From contig NZ_KE384074.1 in NCBI RefSeq assembly GCF_000423665.1, forward strand, positions 148,761-212,760: a DNA stretch of 64,000 bases. The letters run 5' to 3'. Each line of letters starts with the position of its first letter. Positions within the stretch are counted from its first letter, which is position 1. Source of the stretch: Solirubrobacter soli DSM 22325 (GTDB taxonomy: Bacteria > Actinomycetota > Thermoleophilia > Solirubrobacterales > Solirubrobacteraceae). Position numbers and translations under genes: made by a program. The notes beneath the pieces are model-generated. The model made no database searches. It worked only from the letters and a program-made list of their open reading frames with translations, and was not told the DNA's origin. This document shows, one piece after another, positions 46,601 through 51,990 of the stretch.

Positions 46601-46677
46601 GCCGAAGGTGCGCAGACTGTGACCGGATAGTGCATGCTCCGAACGACGACGACGTCAGCGTCGGAGAGGAGGAGCGT

Positions 46678-49600
46678 ATGTATGAACGTGTCCTGAACGT
46701 TGCTGCCCTAACGGCGGTGGCGCTCGCTGTCGGGTCGGCGCCCGCTCTGGCGGCGCCCGCGACGGACGGTCCGGGGGCGATGTCGCACTTCGACCTGGCC
46801 CGCAAGGACTGCGTCGGAACGGCGCTCACGGACCGCTCGAAGGTCTGGTTCACGGTCGCCGACGGCGTGCTGAGCGACGTCTACTACCCGACCAACGACA
46901 ACACCAACAACGAGACGCTGCAGTACATCGTCACCGACGGGTCGACGTTCACGGACCTGCAGACCCGCGACATGACTTACACGGTCCAGGCGCTCGACAA
47001 GCGAGCGCTGACGTGCCGAGTCGTCGCGACCGCGAAGAGCCGCAAGTACCGCATCACGACCGACTTCCTGACGGACTCCAACCGCCCCGCGGTGATCCTG
47101 CACAGCCGCTTCGAGGCGCTGAAGGGCCGCGCGAGCGACTACAGGGTCTACGCGCGCTTCGACCCGACCCTCAACGGCAACGGCGGCGGCGGCTCCGGCA
47201 ACGGCGGCCCCGACACCGGCGCCACCCAGGGCAACGTGCTCGTCGGCTCGGACACGGTCACGGCGACCAACGCCGCCAACCGCGACTACGCGCAGCCCGT
47301 CTTCTCCGCCCTCGACGGCGGCTTCACCGAGGTCTCCAACGGCTACGCGGGCGCCGCCAGCGACGGCCTCAAGCAGCTCGACACGAGCCGCAAGCTCACC
47401 AACCTCTACACCGACGCCGCGCCCGGCAACCTGACCCAGACCGGCAAGGTCGCGCTCGGCCACGACGGGACGTTCACGCTCGCGCTGGCGTTCGGCTCGA
47501 CCGCCGCGCAGGCGGTCGGCACGGCCAAGGCCATCCTGCACACGCCGCTGTGGTTCACCGCGCTGCAGTACCTGCTCGGCTGGCACCGCTACGACAACTC
47601 CTTGGTCGAGCCCAAGCGCCCCAAGAAGGTCGACCACGACGAGTGGGAGAACCTGCTCGACACGTACTACGTCAGCGCGAACTACGTCAAGGCCGCCACG
47701 GACAAGACGTTCCCGGGCGCGACCTCGGCCGCGATGGCGTCCCCGTGGGGCCAGGCGATCGCCGCCGGCGATCCCGCCAACACGTACTTCGGCTCCTATC
47801 GCGAGGTCTTCGCCCGCGACCTCTACGAGGCGTGGACGGCGGCCTACCTCGACGGGGATCGCAAGCTCGCGACGGACATGACCCGGTTCCTGTTCGAGCG
47901 CCAGCAGCTGCCCGACGGCTCGATGCCGCGCAACAGCCTGACCAACGGCAAGCAGGCGCCGGACAGCTTCAACACCCAGCTCGACGAGTGCGCCTACCCG
48001 CTGGTGATGGCGCTCGCCGTGGGCCTCACGGGCAAGGACTACTACTCCGCCCACATCAAGCCCGCGGCGAACTTCGTCGCCACGCACGGGCCGAGCTTCG
48101 GGCCTGAGCGCTGGGAGGAGCAGGACGGCTACTCGCCTTCGACGATCAGCGCCGAGATCGCGGGCCTGGTCGCCGCGGCCAGGATCGCGGACATGAACGG
48201 CGACAAGGACTCCGCAGCGGTCTGGCGCGGCGTCGCCGACGAGTTCCAGCGCAACCTGAAGACGTGGACGCTGACGACCAACGGCCCGGCGAGCCCGCAG
48301 CCGTACTTCATCCGGCTCTCCAAGACCGGTGACCCGAACGCGGCGATCACGTACAACGTCGGCAACGGCGGCCCCACGCTCGACCAGCGCGCGGTCATCG
48401 ACGCCGGCTTCCTCGAGTACGCGCGGCTCGGCCTGATGAAGGCCAACGACCCGGACATCGTCCGCTCGCTGAAGGTCGTCGACGCGACGATCAAGCGCTC
48501 GACCGTCAACGGCGACGGCTTCTACCGCTACAACGGCGACGGGTACGGCGACGGCTCGACCGACGGCCACCCGTGGGCGCCCTCGAACAAGGGCAACGGC
48601 CACCTGTGGCCGGTCCTGTCGGGTGAGCGCGGGCAGTGGGAGGTCAGCCAGGGCGACACCGGCGACGCGCTCAAGCGGGCGAAGGCGATGGCCGCGATGG
48701 CGTACGGCGTCGGGCTGATCCCCGAGCAGGCGTGGGAGCTGCCGGACCTCGCGCGCTCCCCGTTCGGCACCGACCCGACGATCGCGTCGATCGGCTTCAC
48801 CAACGGCGAGTCGGTCGGCTCGGCGGCGGCGCTGACATGGTCCGCCGCCCAGTTCGTGCGGCTGATGCTGGTCATCGGCTCGGGCGATCCGCTCGACCGC
48901 CCGGCCGAGACGTACGACCGCTACGTCAAGCACACCCAGGGCACGACCGCGCTGACCGTCACCGGCCCGCCGGACAAGTCCCCCGCGACAGGCTCGACGA
49001 CGGTCACGGGCACGAGCACGCCCGGCAACACGATCACCGTCAGCGCCGTCAATCAGGACGATCACACGTCGCTGACCCGCACCGCGACGGTGCCCAGCAG
49101 CGGCGCGTTCAGCATCCCGATCCCGCTCACCGGCGGGACCACGGTGCTCAACATCGTCGCCACGAGCAAGAGCGGCGGCACCGCGCGTGCGATCCGAACC
49201 GTCGTGTTCGACTTCGCGCCCGGCACGCTGCTGTTCTCCAAGGACGACCCGGACGGCGACGACAACGGCCCGGGCAACTTCGCCTATCCGACGTCGTCGA
49301 ACTTCAAGCCGGGTGCGTATGACCTGCAGCGCTTCGAGGTCTATGACGCGGGCGACCGGATCATCTTCCGCGTCCGCACGCGTGACCTGTCGCCGACGTT
49401 CGGCTCGCCGCTCGGCGCGCAGTTGGTCGACGTCTACGTGAGCATCCCCGGCGCCTCGCCCACCTCGACGAGCGCCGCGTTCACGAGCCGCAACTACACG
49501 CTCGCGACTCCCTGGGCCAAGCGGATCGAGGTCCAGGGCTTCGGCCAGCAGTACGTCGACGCGAGCGGTGCGACGCTCGGCCAGGTCAACATCACCGGCA

Positions 49601-49899
49601 ACGAGGTCAGCCGCTACATCACGTTCAGCGTGACCAAGGCGAGCCTCGGGACGCCGGCTTCCGGCTGGGGCTTCGCCGTCGTGCTGACCGGCCAGGACGG
49701 CTTCAGCTCCGACCAGGCCCGCGGGTTCCAGTCGACGCCGCAGGACTTCCAGTTCGGCGTCTGCGCCACGGCCAGTTCCGACCCGCACTGCACGGTGAAC
49801 CCGGGCACGGTCCCGAAGGCGATGGACACGTTCACGCCCCCGGCCGAGCTCGACTACACGCTGCACCCGGTCGTCCTGACCCCGGTGACGATCCCGTAG
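46678..49899 (+). CDS. secreted GH15 glucodextranase/glucoamylase-like glycosidase
   Basis: The 1073-residue protein has a signal peptide (about 1-25), an N-terminal beta-sandwich with TDRSKVWFTVADGVLSDVYYP as in bacterial GH15 enzymes, and the (alpha/alpha)6 catalytic domain. The catalytic acids are E481 in RWEEQDGYSPST and E655 in GQWEVSQGD. An Ig-like domain (about 765-840) and a glucodextranase C-terminal-type domain with VYDAGDRIIFRVRTRD follow. It probably releases glucose from the non-reducing end of dextran or starch-like glucans outside the cell. A clear Shine-Dalgarno (GAGGAGG) precedes the ATG. Confidence 0.93.
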   Translation: MYERVLNVAALTAVALAVGSAPALAAPATDGPGAMSHFDLARKDCVGTALTDRSKVWFTVADGVLSDVYYPTNDNTNNETLQYIVTDGSTFTDLQTRDMTYTVQALDKRALTCRVVATAKSRKYRITTDFLTDSNRPAVILHSRFEALKGRASDYRVYARFDPTLNGNGGGGSGNGGPDTGATQGNVLVGSDTVTATNAANRDYAQPVFSALDGGFTEVSNGYAGAASDGLKQLDTSRKLTNLYTDAAPGNLTQTGKVALGHDGTFTLALAFGSTAAQAVGTAKAILHTPLWFTALQYLLGWHRYDNSLVEPKRPKKVDHDEWENLLDTYYVSANYVKAATDKTFPGATSAAMASPWGQAIAAGDPANTYFGSYREVFARDLYEAWTAAYLDGDRKLATDMTRFLFERQQLPDGSMPRNSLTNGKQAPDSFNTQLDECAYPLVMALAVGLTGKDYYSAHIKPAANFVATHGPSFGPERWEEQDGYSPSTISAEIAGLVAAARIADMNGDKDSAAVWRGVADEFQRNLKTWTLTTNGPASPQPYFIRLSKTGDPNAAITYNVGNGGPTLDQRAVIDAGFLEYARLGLMKANDPDIVRSLKVVDATIKRSTVNGDGFYRYNGDGYGDGSTDGHPWAPSNKGNGHLWPVLSGERGQWEVSQGDTGDALKRAKAMAAMAYGVGLIPEQAWELPDLARSPFGTDPTIASIGFTNGESVGSAAALTWSAAQFVRLMLVIGSGDPLDRPAETYDRYVKHTQGTTALTVTGPPDKSPATGSTTVTGTSTPGNTITVSAVNQDDHTSLTRTATVPSSGAFSIPIPLTGGTTVLNIVATSKSGGTARAIRTVVFDFAPGTLLFSKDDPDGDDNGPGNFAYPTSSNFKPGAYDLQRFEVYDAGDRIIFRVRTRDLSPTFGSPLGAQLVDVYVSIPGASPTSTSAAFTSRNYTLATPWAKRIEVQGFGQQYVDASGATLGQVNITGNEVSRYITFSVTKASLGTPASGWGFAVVLTGQDGFSSDQARGFQSTPQDFQFGVCATASSDPHCTVNPGTVPKAMDTFTPPAELDYTLHPVVLTPVTIP

Positions 49900-49998: not shown

Positions 49999-51990
49999 TC
50001 AGCCGATGCGAGCCTTGCCCTTGCAGAAGGCGATGTAGTCCACGAGCGCGTCGGGGACGCTGTCGCCGGTCGTCAGCAGCACGCCGACCGAGCACTTGAG
50101 CAGGTACGCGCACGGCGGGAGGCTGGTGAACGTCCAGCCGTTCGGGTTGGCGGTACCGAACTGGTTGTCCGGCGTCGCGGCGCCGTCCGGCACGAGCGTG
50201 AACGCGTACGGGCCGCCCGGGCCTTCGAGCCACACGCTGACCGCGCCGAGGTGCGGGTGCGCGGCGGTGTACTTGACGGTGAGGCTGTTGGCCAGGGTCG
50301 AGCACGGCGTGCTCTCGAGCTCGGCGATCCCGATCGAGTCCACCGCGAGCTCATCGCTCGCCCCGAACAGGCCACCGGGCCAGTACGGGTGGTGCGAGAT
50401 GTGGTCGTAGTGGGTGTTGTTGATCGCGATGTGCGAGCAGGTCCCGGCGTCGGTGCCGGAGCCGGACGTGCCCTGGTCGCGGATCCGCATGCGGACGCCG
50501 TAGTTGACGTCGCTCGCCGGCACGTTGGCCGCGTCGCCGGCGTCCACCCCGGTCTCGTCGACCGACGCCGTGAACGGAAGCAGCGCGCGCGTGTTGAGGT
50601 TGATCAGGTCCGAGCCGGGCACGAAGCGCCAGCCGGAGCCGGGGACCATCGGCGGGACCGGGAACAGCGGCGGGACCTGGATCCAGCCGTCCGGGTCGGG
50701 CGTGATGTTGAAGACGCCCGAGGCCGGGTTGTTGACCCACACCGGGATGACCTCGATGAACGGCGGGCCGACGATCGGCCGGATGAACGCGCCGATGTTC
50801 GTCGCCACGATCTTGCCGCCGTCGACCTTCGTCCAACTGCCCATGGGGTTGCCGGCCGCGTCGGTCGCGATCGTCTCGAAGCGATACTCGATCAGCGGCG
50901 CGCCGTCGACCACCGAGAGGCCGCCGTTGAGCCGCAGCGTCGAGAAGAACGCCCGCGAGTCGGCGACCGTCAGGCCGCTGCCGCCGACGCCGCTGTCGAC
51001 ATCCGTCGCGTAGAAGAGCCCGCCGATCTTCGTGAACACGCCGATCGTCCGCGGCGGGCAGACGCACACGCAGAACAGCTGGCACCGCAGGAAGCAGACC
51101 CAGTGGCAGAACTGGACGCAGAAGCGCTCGAACTGCAGCTCCTTGGCCAGCGACTGCACGAGCTCCGTGTCCTCGCGCAGGAACGCGGCGGTGAGCCGCT
51201 CGAGCGAGGGCTTCTCCAGCGCCCCGCCGGCGAGCGCGAACTCGCGCATCTCATCCAGCGGCGAAGCGAGCTTCTCCAGCGGGTAGATCCGGCACAGCCG
51301 CAGGCAGACGAGCATGCAGCGCCAGCTGCAGAACCACTCGCACAGGAAGAAGCAGAACCGCCCGAACCCGCCGCCCTCCAGCACGGAGCCGAGCTGTTCG
51401 CAGCTGCCCGCGAGCACGGCCTTGGTCGCCTCGGTGAACGTCTTCTCGTCGCGTGCGAGCTCGCTCAGCGCCGCGCCCGCCGCGACGAGCTCGGGCCCGA
51501 GGTGCGGCCGCTGGACGAGAATCGGCGAGCAGACGACCTCGCAGACCAGCCGGTAGTGCACGGTGCAGACCCAGTGGCACAGCAGATGGCTGAACCGCTC
51601 GATCCCGTTCTTGTCGATCAATGCCCGCCAGGACGAGATGTCGCGGTCCTCGACGGCGTCGACCATCAGCCGCACCATCGCCTCGTCGGCGGTCAACTTC
51701 GCCACCAGCTCCGCGAACTCGCGCGGGTCCGGCGGCTCGAGGTCGGGCAGCGGCGGGCCGGCGAGCTCCAGACAGAGGATCACCGCCTCCTTGCTGCGCA
51801 GCCAGTGACACACGACCTCGCAGCGCTCGGCGAGCTGATGGCGCTCCAGCAGCTTCGCCATCGACTCGCCGTCGTACGCCCGGAACGCGTCGACGGCGGC
51901 GCGGAACACTTCCTCGTCCCGCGCCAGCGCCGCCATCGCGTCCGCACCGGCGACTACCTCATCGAGCAGCGCTCGATCTTGTTCAGCCAT
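49999..51990 (-). CDS. cysteine-ladder repeat protein, no recognised family
   Basis: The 663-residue protein has two parts. Residues 5-315 are four helical repeats of about 75-85 residues. Each ends in a helix with Cys at four-residue steps: 57, 61 and 73; 138, 142, 150 and 154; 213, 217, 221, 225, 229 and 233; 291, 295, 299, 303, 307 and 311. In each repeat the second Cys-step holds CHW or CEW. Residues about 316-663 are a beta-rich domain with few Cys and a P-domain-like end. There is no signal peptide. A strong Shine-Dalgarno (GGAGG) fixes the start. Inference: the Cys stripes bind soft metal ions or form disulfides. The function is unknown. Confidence 0.85.
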   Translation of the reverse strand: MAEQDRALLDEVVAGADAMAALARDEEVFRAAVDAFRAYDGESMAKLLERHQLAERCEVVCHWLRSKEAVILCLELAGPPLPDLEPPDPREFAELVAKLTADEAMVRLMVDAVEDRDISSWRALIDKNGIERFSHLLCHWVCTVHYRLVCEVVCSPILVQRPHLGPELVAAGAALSELARDEKTFTEATKAVLAGSCEQLGSVLEGGGFGRFCFFLCEWFCSWRCMLVCLRLCRIYPLEKLASPLDEMREFALAGGALEKPSLERLTAAFLREDTELVQSLAKELQFERFCVQFCHWVCFLRCQLFCVCVCPPRTIGVFTKIGGLFYATDVDSGVGGSGLTVADSRAFFSTLRLNGGLSVVDGAPLIEYRFETIATDAAGNPMGSWTKVDGGKIVATNIGAFIRPIVGPPFIEVIPVWVNNPASGVFNITPDPDGWIQVPPLFPVPPMVPGSGWRFVPGSDLINLNTRALLPFTASVDETGVDAGDAANVPASDVNYGVRMRIRDQGTSGSGTDAGTCSHIAINNTHYDHISHHPYWPGGLFGASDELAVDSIGIAELESTPCSTLANSLTVKYTAAHPHLGAVSVWLEGPGGPYAFTLVPDGAATPDNQFGTANPNGWTFTSLPPCAYLLKCSVGVLLTTGDSVPDALVDYIAFCKGKARIG

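Follow-up and report, generated by a model that had tools for sequence, protein, structure and literature searches.

Helical repeats with a conserved cysteine grid and antiparallel paired losses in a bacterial protein family: a possible soft-metal thiolate domain

A 64,000-nucleotide stretch of the Solirubrobacter soli DSM 22325 genome (contig NZ_KE384074.1, positions 148,761 to 212,760; hereafter the window) carries on its minus strand a gene for a 663-residue protein with four helical repeats, each ending in a helix with cysteines at four-residue spacing. This grid is conserved in a family of 14 known proteins, and its cysteines are lost in pairs between neighboring repeats. Our preferred reading, drawn from the sequences and by analogy, is a cytosolic thiolate domain that may bind a soft metal, most likely Cu(I), to which we assign a probability of roughly 40%. 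The repeats had been noticed in a preliminary description made from the DNA letters, and that observation is confirmed and stronger than first stated. To our knowledge, few families carry rows of thiols along their helices, the copper-storing Csp proteins being the clearest example. The present family may offer a second, unrelated helix-thiol solution, whose evolutionary record of pairing would lead to directly testable metal or disulfide sites.

The cysteine grid and its paired losses

The gene has an ATG start, and a GGAGG motif ends 7 nt upstream of it; neither a promoter nor a terminator was detected in scans of its surroundings. Its features are as follows.

49999..51990, minus strand: whole gene, 663 residues, four Cys-helix repeats and a C-terminal beta region (open reading frame (ORF) and translation)
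51751..51975, minus strand: repeat 1, residues 6-80, odd type, Cys helix 54-77 (profile E 2.7e-29, model, grid table); grid cysteines 57, 61 and 73, with R65, A69 and A77 at the remaining positions
51520..51738, minus strand: repeat 2, residues 85-157, even type, Cys helix 131-153 (profile E 8.4e-32, model, grid table); grid cysteines 138, 142, 150 and 154, with S134 and Y146 at the remaining positions
51280..51507, minus strand: repeat 3, residues 162-237, odd type; all six grid cysteines, 213, 217, 221, 225, 229 and 233 (profile E 7.9e-32, model, grid table)
51049..51264, minus strand: repeat 4, residues 243-314, even type; all six grid cysteines, 291, 295, 299, 303, 307 and 311 (profile E 3.2e-28, model, grid table)
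50944..51054, minus strand: low-confidence linker, residues 313-349 (predicted local distance difference test (pLDDT) score <50)
49999..51048, minus strand: C-terminal part, residues 315-663, predicted all-beta past the linker and conserved in the four-repeat class (model, BLAST, shared motifs)

The ORF of the preliminary description is present, and all the cysteine positions given there (57, 61, 73; 138, 142, 150, 154; 213-233; 291-311) are correct; C197 and C309 were unlisted, the latter being one additional, off-grid cysteine of repeat 4. The translation also bears out its CHW or CEW step in each repeat, which is CHW everywhere except in repeat 3, where it is CEW. The four repeats are each about 78 residues long, with the Cys helix at the end. 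A profile of 77 columns, for which three proteins supplied ten repeats, recovers all four at E values of 8e-32 to 3e-28, these four being among the profile's ten. Residues 1-315 contain 13 cysteine pairs at i+4, a number that none of 20,000 whole-region shuffles reached (maximum 7), and a six-cysteine i+4 run appeared in 3 of the 20,000. With shuffling confined to the two Cys segments, a run of six arose in at least one segment in 2 of 20,000 trials and in both in 0 of 20,000.

Across the 48 repeats of the 14 proteins (ten with four repeats, four with two), cysteine occupies 257 of 288 grid cells, and the off-grid cysteines number 14 in profile columns and 0 in inserts. All six Cys columns are among the eight most conserved of the columns filled in at least 30 repeats, and one of them is cysteine in 48 of 48 repeats. 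In a tree of the 48 repeats, a single branch (local support 0.999) parts the 24 odd repeats, namely R1, R3 and the first repeats of the two-repeat proteins, from the 24 even ones; on the simplest reading, the four-repeat form is therefore probably a duplicated two-repeat unit.

To compare the losses, the grid positions of each Cys helix were numbered 1 to 6, and position k of an odd helix was paired with position 7-k of the even helix. Among the 24 odd-even units, 14 co-losses fall at k/7-k and three losses are unpaired (R1 position 2 in L039, R1 position 4 in the window protein and R4 position 2 in L033); 14 of 16 odd-helix losses and 14 of 15 even-helix losses are matched at the 7-k partner. 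When the antiparallel register is shifted, no more than 2 co-losses are counted, and in parallel registers no more than 7; none of 100,000 random placements within units, with relatedness ignored, reached 14. In 7 of the ten four-repeat proteins, R1 position 3 is Arg exactly where R2 position 4 is F, Y, T or W, and in the remaining 3 both positions are cysteine. R1 position 6 and R2 position 1 are lost jointly in five of the ten four-repeat and one of the four two-repeat proteins, and never singly, while L040 has lost R3 position 6 and R4 position 1 together. The replacement pairs are R with F, Y, T or W; A with A, S, I or W; S with S; and T with V. In the window protein the first two repeats are partly reduced (R65/Y146, A77/S134 and the unpaired A69/C142), and the second two are complete. 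By our count on the tree, the co-losses represent about five independent events, and the chance that all five fall at the 7-k partner is 1.3e-4; paired losses occur only at rungs 3:4 and 6:1, and 24 of the 720 possible pairings explain the losses just as well. Co-loss in this antiparallel register implies, as far as covariation can tell, that each odd Cys helix lies antiparallel against its even partner, with rungs joining odd k to even 7-k, the full ladder being extrapolated from rungs 3:4 and 6:1.

Predicted structure and the possible role of the thiols

The preliminary description had proposed a structure prediction and a profile search as checks. An AlphaFold2 model, built from nine sequences (the window protein and eight loci from genome contigs), is confident and all-helical for residues 1-314, with a pLDDT of 93.6 and a predicted template-modelling score (pTM) of 0.91, in agreement with the four helical repeats claimed there. 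In each repeat, helices of 12-21, 12 and 10-11 residues are followed by the Cys helix, of 23-24 residues. The N-terminal domain thus has 16 predicted helices, of which only the last one in every repeat carries the Cys grid. The full-length model (pTM 0.53) predicts an all-beta C-terminal part at lower confidence, in line with the attached beta domain of the preliminary description. Foldseek searches against the PDB returned no match at E <= 0.001 for the N-terminal or the full-length model (query TM-scores for the former were at most 0.20 among the 50 matches listed), and the N-terminal model had no match at E <= 0.001 among the BFVD viral models. The single straight thiol stripe that had been envisaged does not hold: on an ideal alpha helix, six i+4 cysteines span 200 degrees and form a winding ramp. 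In an idealized antiparallel pair crossing at about 30 degrees, the best mean on a coarse grid, rungs 3:4 come to about 2-4 Å and rungs 2:5 to about 5-7 Å between beta carbons.

We favor an explanation in which the protein would combine a cytosolic, thiol-rich helical module with a beta-sandwich-like region. The basic unit would be one odd and one even repeat, both closed by a helix some 23 residues long that bears as many as six i+4 cysteines; the two Cys helices would lie face to face and antiparallel, cysteine k opposite cysteine 7-k, giving up to six Cys-Cys rungs. The window protein would have two such units, which might share one thiol-lined core of the kind envisaged in the preliminary description. 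The rungs and the intrahelical i+4 pairs could bind several soft, thiophilic metal ions, with Cu(I) as the best guess, in a buffering or storage role, and the C-terminal beta region may place or present the helical module. A crude hydropathy scan revealed no strong N-terminal hydrophobic stretch in any of the 14 proteins, the highest 15-residue mean being 1.32 in the window protein; a reducing cytosol would therefore be expected, favoring reduced thiols. Soft-metal binding is favored because the thiols are likely to be reduced and because the ladder would offer both kinds of cysteine pair that hold Cu(I) in Csp3, in which eight Cu(I) sites use the CXXXC motifs of one helix and all the others the cysteines of adjacent helices (PMC5171941).

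The likeness to Csp proteins lies in the many helix-borne cysteines, with intrahelical CXXXC pairs and pairs between adjacent helices, and Csp3 also has no signal peptide (PMC5171941). Csp3 proteins are described as chains of 108-136 residues that form tetramers of single four-helix bundles and contain 16-19 cysteines and 4-7 histidines (PMC10155185). In contrast, the present family has a domain of about 315 residues, predicted to hold 16 helices in place of the lone compact four-helix bundle of Csp; one helix in every four is a long Cys helix, the i+4 grids are uniform, the repeats are of odd and even origin, and a beta region is attached. For the Csp (DUF326) profile PF03860, no match was listed for the window protein at E <= 10, none was found in 9 members at E <= 0.1 (HMMER filters can drop very weak matches), and none of the 13 carrier genomes gave a match at E <= 0.001, with the Bacillus subtilis control positive; nor does a Csp appear among the PDB sequence matches listed (14, and the best 60 of 72). 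The preliminary description was thus right that the layout is not that of DUF326 or Csp, and its comparison with Csp stands as an analogy and falls as a claim of membership: judged by sequence and predicted layout, the family is not Csp.

Several points weigh against metal binding. Paired co-loss is a classic mark of disulfides as well, and the co-losses reduce to only about five independent events. The end rungs 1:6 lie 9-11 Å apart between beta carbons on ideal helices, though 6:1 is co-lost, and the real helices would therefore have to be bent or the end rungs bridged. Homology to any metal protein was not found in the libraries searched, and no recurrent metal-handling neighbor was noted at the 14 loci, whose neighbors were read mostly by eye from ORF lists, with Pfam searches for a selection.

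The foremost alternative, which we regard as possible but less probable, is that interhelical disulfides staple a rigid scaffold, as in an enlarged twin CX3C protein, after export or exposure to oxidants. Paired losses of cysteine are typical of disulfides, and the antiparallel n+1-k register of the losses would suit them. In the C-terminal part, moreover, three cysteines are invariant in 9 of 9 aligned proteins, and many of the weak Foldseek neighbors (best E 0.03) of this beta-rich part are Ig-like folds, which are frequent in extracellular proteins. There is precedent in the CX9C protein Cox19, with disulfides C1-C4 and C2-C3, and in the twin CX3C small Tims, with an outer and an inner disulfide, which in their reduced form bind zinc (PMC3759932). 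The likeness is the interhelical pairing in n+1-k order, seen here by covariation and for rungs 3:4 and 6:1 only. The twin CX3C/CX9C proteins, however, are small hairpins with two cysteines per helix, whereas the present family has up to six per helix, paired helices about 55 residues apart and a 315-residue domain, and no sequence relation to them was found among the PDB matches listed. The absence of a strong N-terminal hydrophobic stretch in all 14 proteins in the crude scan speaks against export, the three unpaired losses leave lone grid cysteines such as C142 of the window protein, and the end rungs would be too far apart for disulfides unless the helices are bent. The paired-loss pattern renders the choice between metal and disulfide directly testable.

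It is quite improbable, in our estimate, that the cysteines are merely buried structural thiols that pack hydrophobic helices without a chemical role, the co-losses being compensation of core volume. The replacement pairs do look compensatory, and the Cys helices are fairly hydrophobic, the best 19-residue Kyte-Doolittle mean being 1.98 and 3 of 48 segments reaching 1.6. However, core cysteines usually exchange with A, V, S or L, whereas here six of the eight most conserved columns are Cys columns. The second Cys segment of the two-repeat proteins, with a net charge of +4 to +8, still keeps 23 of its 24 grid cysteines, and packing alone is less likely because cysteine is retained even in so basic a helix. 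A membrane-helix reading was set aside, the Cys-helix segments being charged, and strongly basic in the two-repeat class.

If the family does line its helices with thiols in a way unrelated to Csp, it might represent a new intracellular route for handling soft metals in soil bacteria and could guide the design of helices that are filled with metal or laddered with disulfides, for which it would be a natural template. A bolder version, which we consider unlikely, is a new architecture in which antiparallel helix pairs with up to six rungs, arising from a duplicated two-repeat unit, form a cysteine ladder that carries a thiolate row of Cu(I) or another soft metal about 30 Å long, with no counterpart among solved folds. 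Such a row would amount to a storage rod or even an electron path.

Spread and evolution of the family

Carriers include Solirubrobacteraceae and relatives in their class, Specibacter, Acidobacteriota, and metagenome-assembled genomes (MAGs) assigned to Chloroflexi and Sphingomonadales, and the window's own genome, which is listed with 8% contamination, holds one four-repeat and one two-repeat member. The single-protein search was positive in 2 of 151 relative genomes, the repeat-profile search in 6 of 399 genomes of the class, the phylum search in 2 of 396 and a search of the class of the Terriglobia carrier in 3 of 200; the window's own genome or the centre genome is among the positives in each count. 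One of the two phylum positives, in genome G550 (E 7.9e-4), was dismissed as a chance match to an ORF without the Cys grid. An alignment-based scan of genome contigs found 8 loci, in two Solirubrobacteraceae MAGs, a Thermoleophilaceae MAG, a Terriglobia MAG, a Bryobacterales MAG, Specibacter cremeus C1-50, a Chloroflexi MAG and a Sphingomonadales MAG, the last two both from sample GL140_1, where misbinning is possible. Duplicate records were counted once (L028/L033, L004/L035 and L029/L038), and L037, interrupted by masked bases, and L038, interrupted by a contig end, each contributed four repeats.

Other scans gave no relatives. Single-protein scans of viral contigs and phages found none, a single-protein scan of genome contigs gave 216 pattern matches with zero relatives, an alignment-based scan of viral contigs gave 102 pattern matches with zero relatives, and tblastn against plasmids was negative for four further queries, all members of the family or related proteins. 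There was no significant match in Pfam (window protein at E <= 10, 9 members and further members), in NCBIfam (window protein, L030 and L034) or in PHROGs and PADLOC (window protein and its own-genome paralogue). Three weak Pfam matches were dismissed as chance: Clathrin (E 0.11, or 0.039 with the N-terminal part alone), D27-like_C for the paralogue (E 0.086) and Ddi2_HDD in 1 of 9 members (E 0.018). The profile searches thus recovered no characterized family in the libraries searched, and no description of the family was found among the results listed for the literature searched, mostly open-access, in which no paper named Specibacter cremeus either; the family appears to be undescribed in those libraries. 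Of the helical-repeat proteins considered (alphaRep, HEAT and ABLE), alphaRep chains are scored by the repeat profile on its non-Cys part, with whole-sequence E values down to 8.8e-9. Homology to alphaRep was rejected, the matches spanning columns of about 9-45 and missing the Cys helix.

The tree of N-terminal domains departs from taxonomy, with the Thermoleophilaceae protein clustering with the two proteins of the Terriglobia class (support 100/99). Between the protein of the Chloroflexi MAG and one from Solirubrobacteraceae, identity reaches 88%. By these sequence comparisons, the family is patchy and apparently horizontally spread. In four pairs, the ratio of nonsynonymous to synonymous substitution rates (dN/dS) ranges from 0.16-0.27 when computed on the N-terminal domain to 0.13-0.39 on full-length sequences, rough values with dS >1 in three of the four pairs; it is 0.26 for the window gene against its closest relative, L033 (dS >1), whose genome, G356, belongs to the same taxonomic family as the window. 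Judged from these ratios, the N-terminal domain is under purifying selection.

C-terminal regions and genomic neighborhoods

The beta region of the four-repeat class also occurs in WP_118827795.1, a protein of the Salinibacter ruber plasmid pSR47 (tblastn E 1e-3, two-sequence BLASTP E 5e-11, common motifs), which lacks the Cys repeats and in whose N-terminal part the one match is to CarboxypepD_reg, below threshold (E 0.0014). Within 299 genomes of the class, the profile of this region found only the window's own protein. The two-repeat class has a separate C-terminal region with profile matches in 21 of 299 class genomes; beyond the members these are mostly short and weak (E 4e-6 to 9e-4), many within very long ORFs, and one near-full-length match in genome G313 (E 1.6e-8) follows an unrelated N-terminal part. 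When the profile of the four-repeat family was compared with that of the two-repeat beta region, the probability came to 2%, and we claim no relatedness of the two beta regions. The C-terminal regions appear to behave like exchangeable modules, because beta regions occur without Cys repeats in other proteins.

No conserved neighbor was noted across the 14 loci. The window gene lies 109 nt behind a phosphodiesterase gene with a signal-like N-terminus by eye, and a convergent gene of the GH15 glucodextranase type, in which N and C domains were recognized and a B domain matched below threshold, occupies 46630-49899 of the window. In the Solirubrobacteraceae MAG locus L038 (102-3937), the Cys gene is preceded by a BTAD regulator, two ATP-grasp-like genes of the MvdD/SAV_5884 type (TIGR04187 E 9.8e-46 and 7.9e-6, both below the cut-off) and a 145-aa KFE-rich ORF, which together look like a peptide-modification cluster. 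Behind the two-repeat gene of L030 (2482-3966) are a 132-aa ORF, for which Pfam gives just a match to HTH_38 below threshold, and an overlapping radical SAM gene. A small BTAD regulator, 46% identical to that of L038, stands directly upstream in L035/L004, and in the window's genome the nearest relative of the BTAD regulator (44% identity, E 6e-47) stands at the head of an extracellular contractile injection system (eCIS) cluster.

These neighbors raise the idea of a modified or exported protein, either a thioether target of ATP-grasp or radical SAM enzymes or an eCIS cargo, to which we give little credence. They are sparse, with ATP-grasp genes at 1, a radical SAM gene at 1 and BTAD regulators at 2 of the 14 loci, and no maturase of ribosomally synthesized and post-translationally modified peptides was seen to recur among the neighbors, which were read mostly by eye. 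The eCIS-cargo idea, prompted by the BTAD regulator, is unsupported by co-occurrence: of the 14 genomes searched (13 carriers plus G313, where just a related beta region is present; several are incomplete), 10 lack the eCIS marker PF14065, and the one eCIS cluster read contains no family gene. Within the class, PF14065 occurs in 1 of 6 carriers vs 13 of 218 other genomes drawn, some of which may be carriers, numbers too small either to establish a link or to rule one out. In the window's genome, the family members are on contigs C11 and C9 and the Pvc16_N loci on C3 and C4.

Another cofactor, such as iron-sulfur clusters or As(III), or a thiol redox buffer is very improbable in our estimate. 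In favor of such a role, the thiols are dense, Arg or Lys lies near cysteine in several helices, and two ArsA-type ATPase genes and two small similar ORFs stand about 500 bp upstream of the four-repeat gene in L055 (4419-7223), from a relative of the Terriglobia carrier, but no CxxC or known Fe-S motif was noticed in the repeats by eye, and the ArsA pair is the only ion-related neighbor noted, at 1 of 14 loci.

Some minor observations concern the same genomes. The eCIS cluster of the window's genome (L088; G000, contig C3, 152000-171000) encodes Pvc16_N, tail sheath and tail tube proteins, with a BTAD-type regulator and a 68-aa ORF at its head, and further Pvc16_N genes lie at C3:462691 and C4:37434. 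In G313, the row L078 (contig C14, 18000-26000) consists of a BTAD-type regulator, a 77-aa ORF, the protein with the two-repeat-class beta region and a galactose-oxidase-like gene; in a single comparison, the 77-aa ORF is 36% identical to the eCIS-linked 68-aa ORF (E 1e-5). About 1.5 kb beyond the Specibacter cremeus member (L036:13191-15076) are a resolvase gene, identified with Pfam, and a transposase-like ORF, identified by eye with no Pfam match above the cut-off, neighbors that are consistent with mobility.

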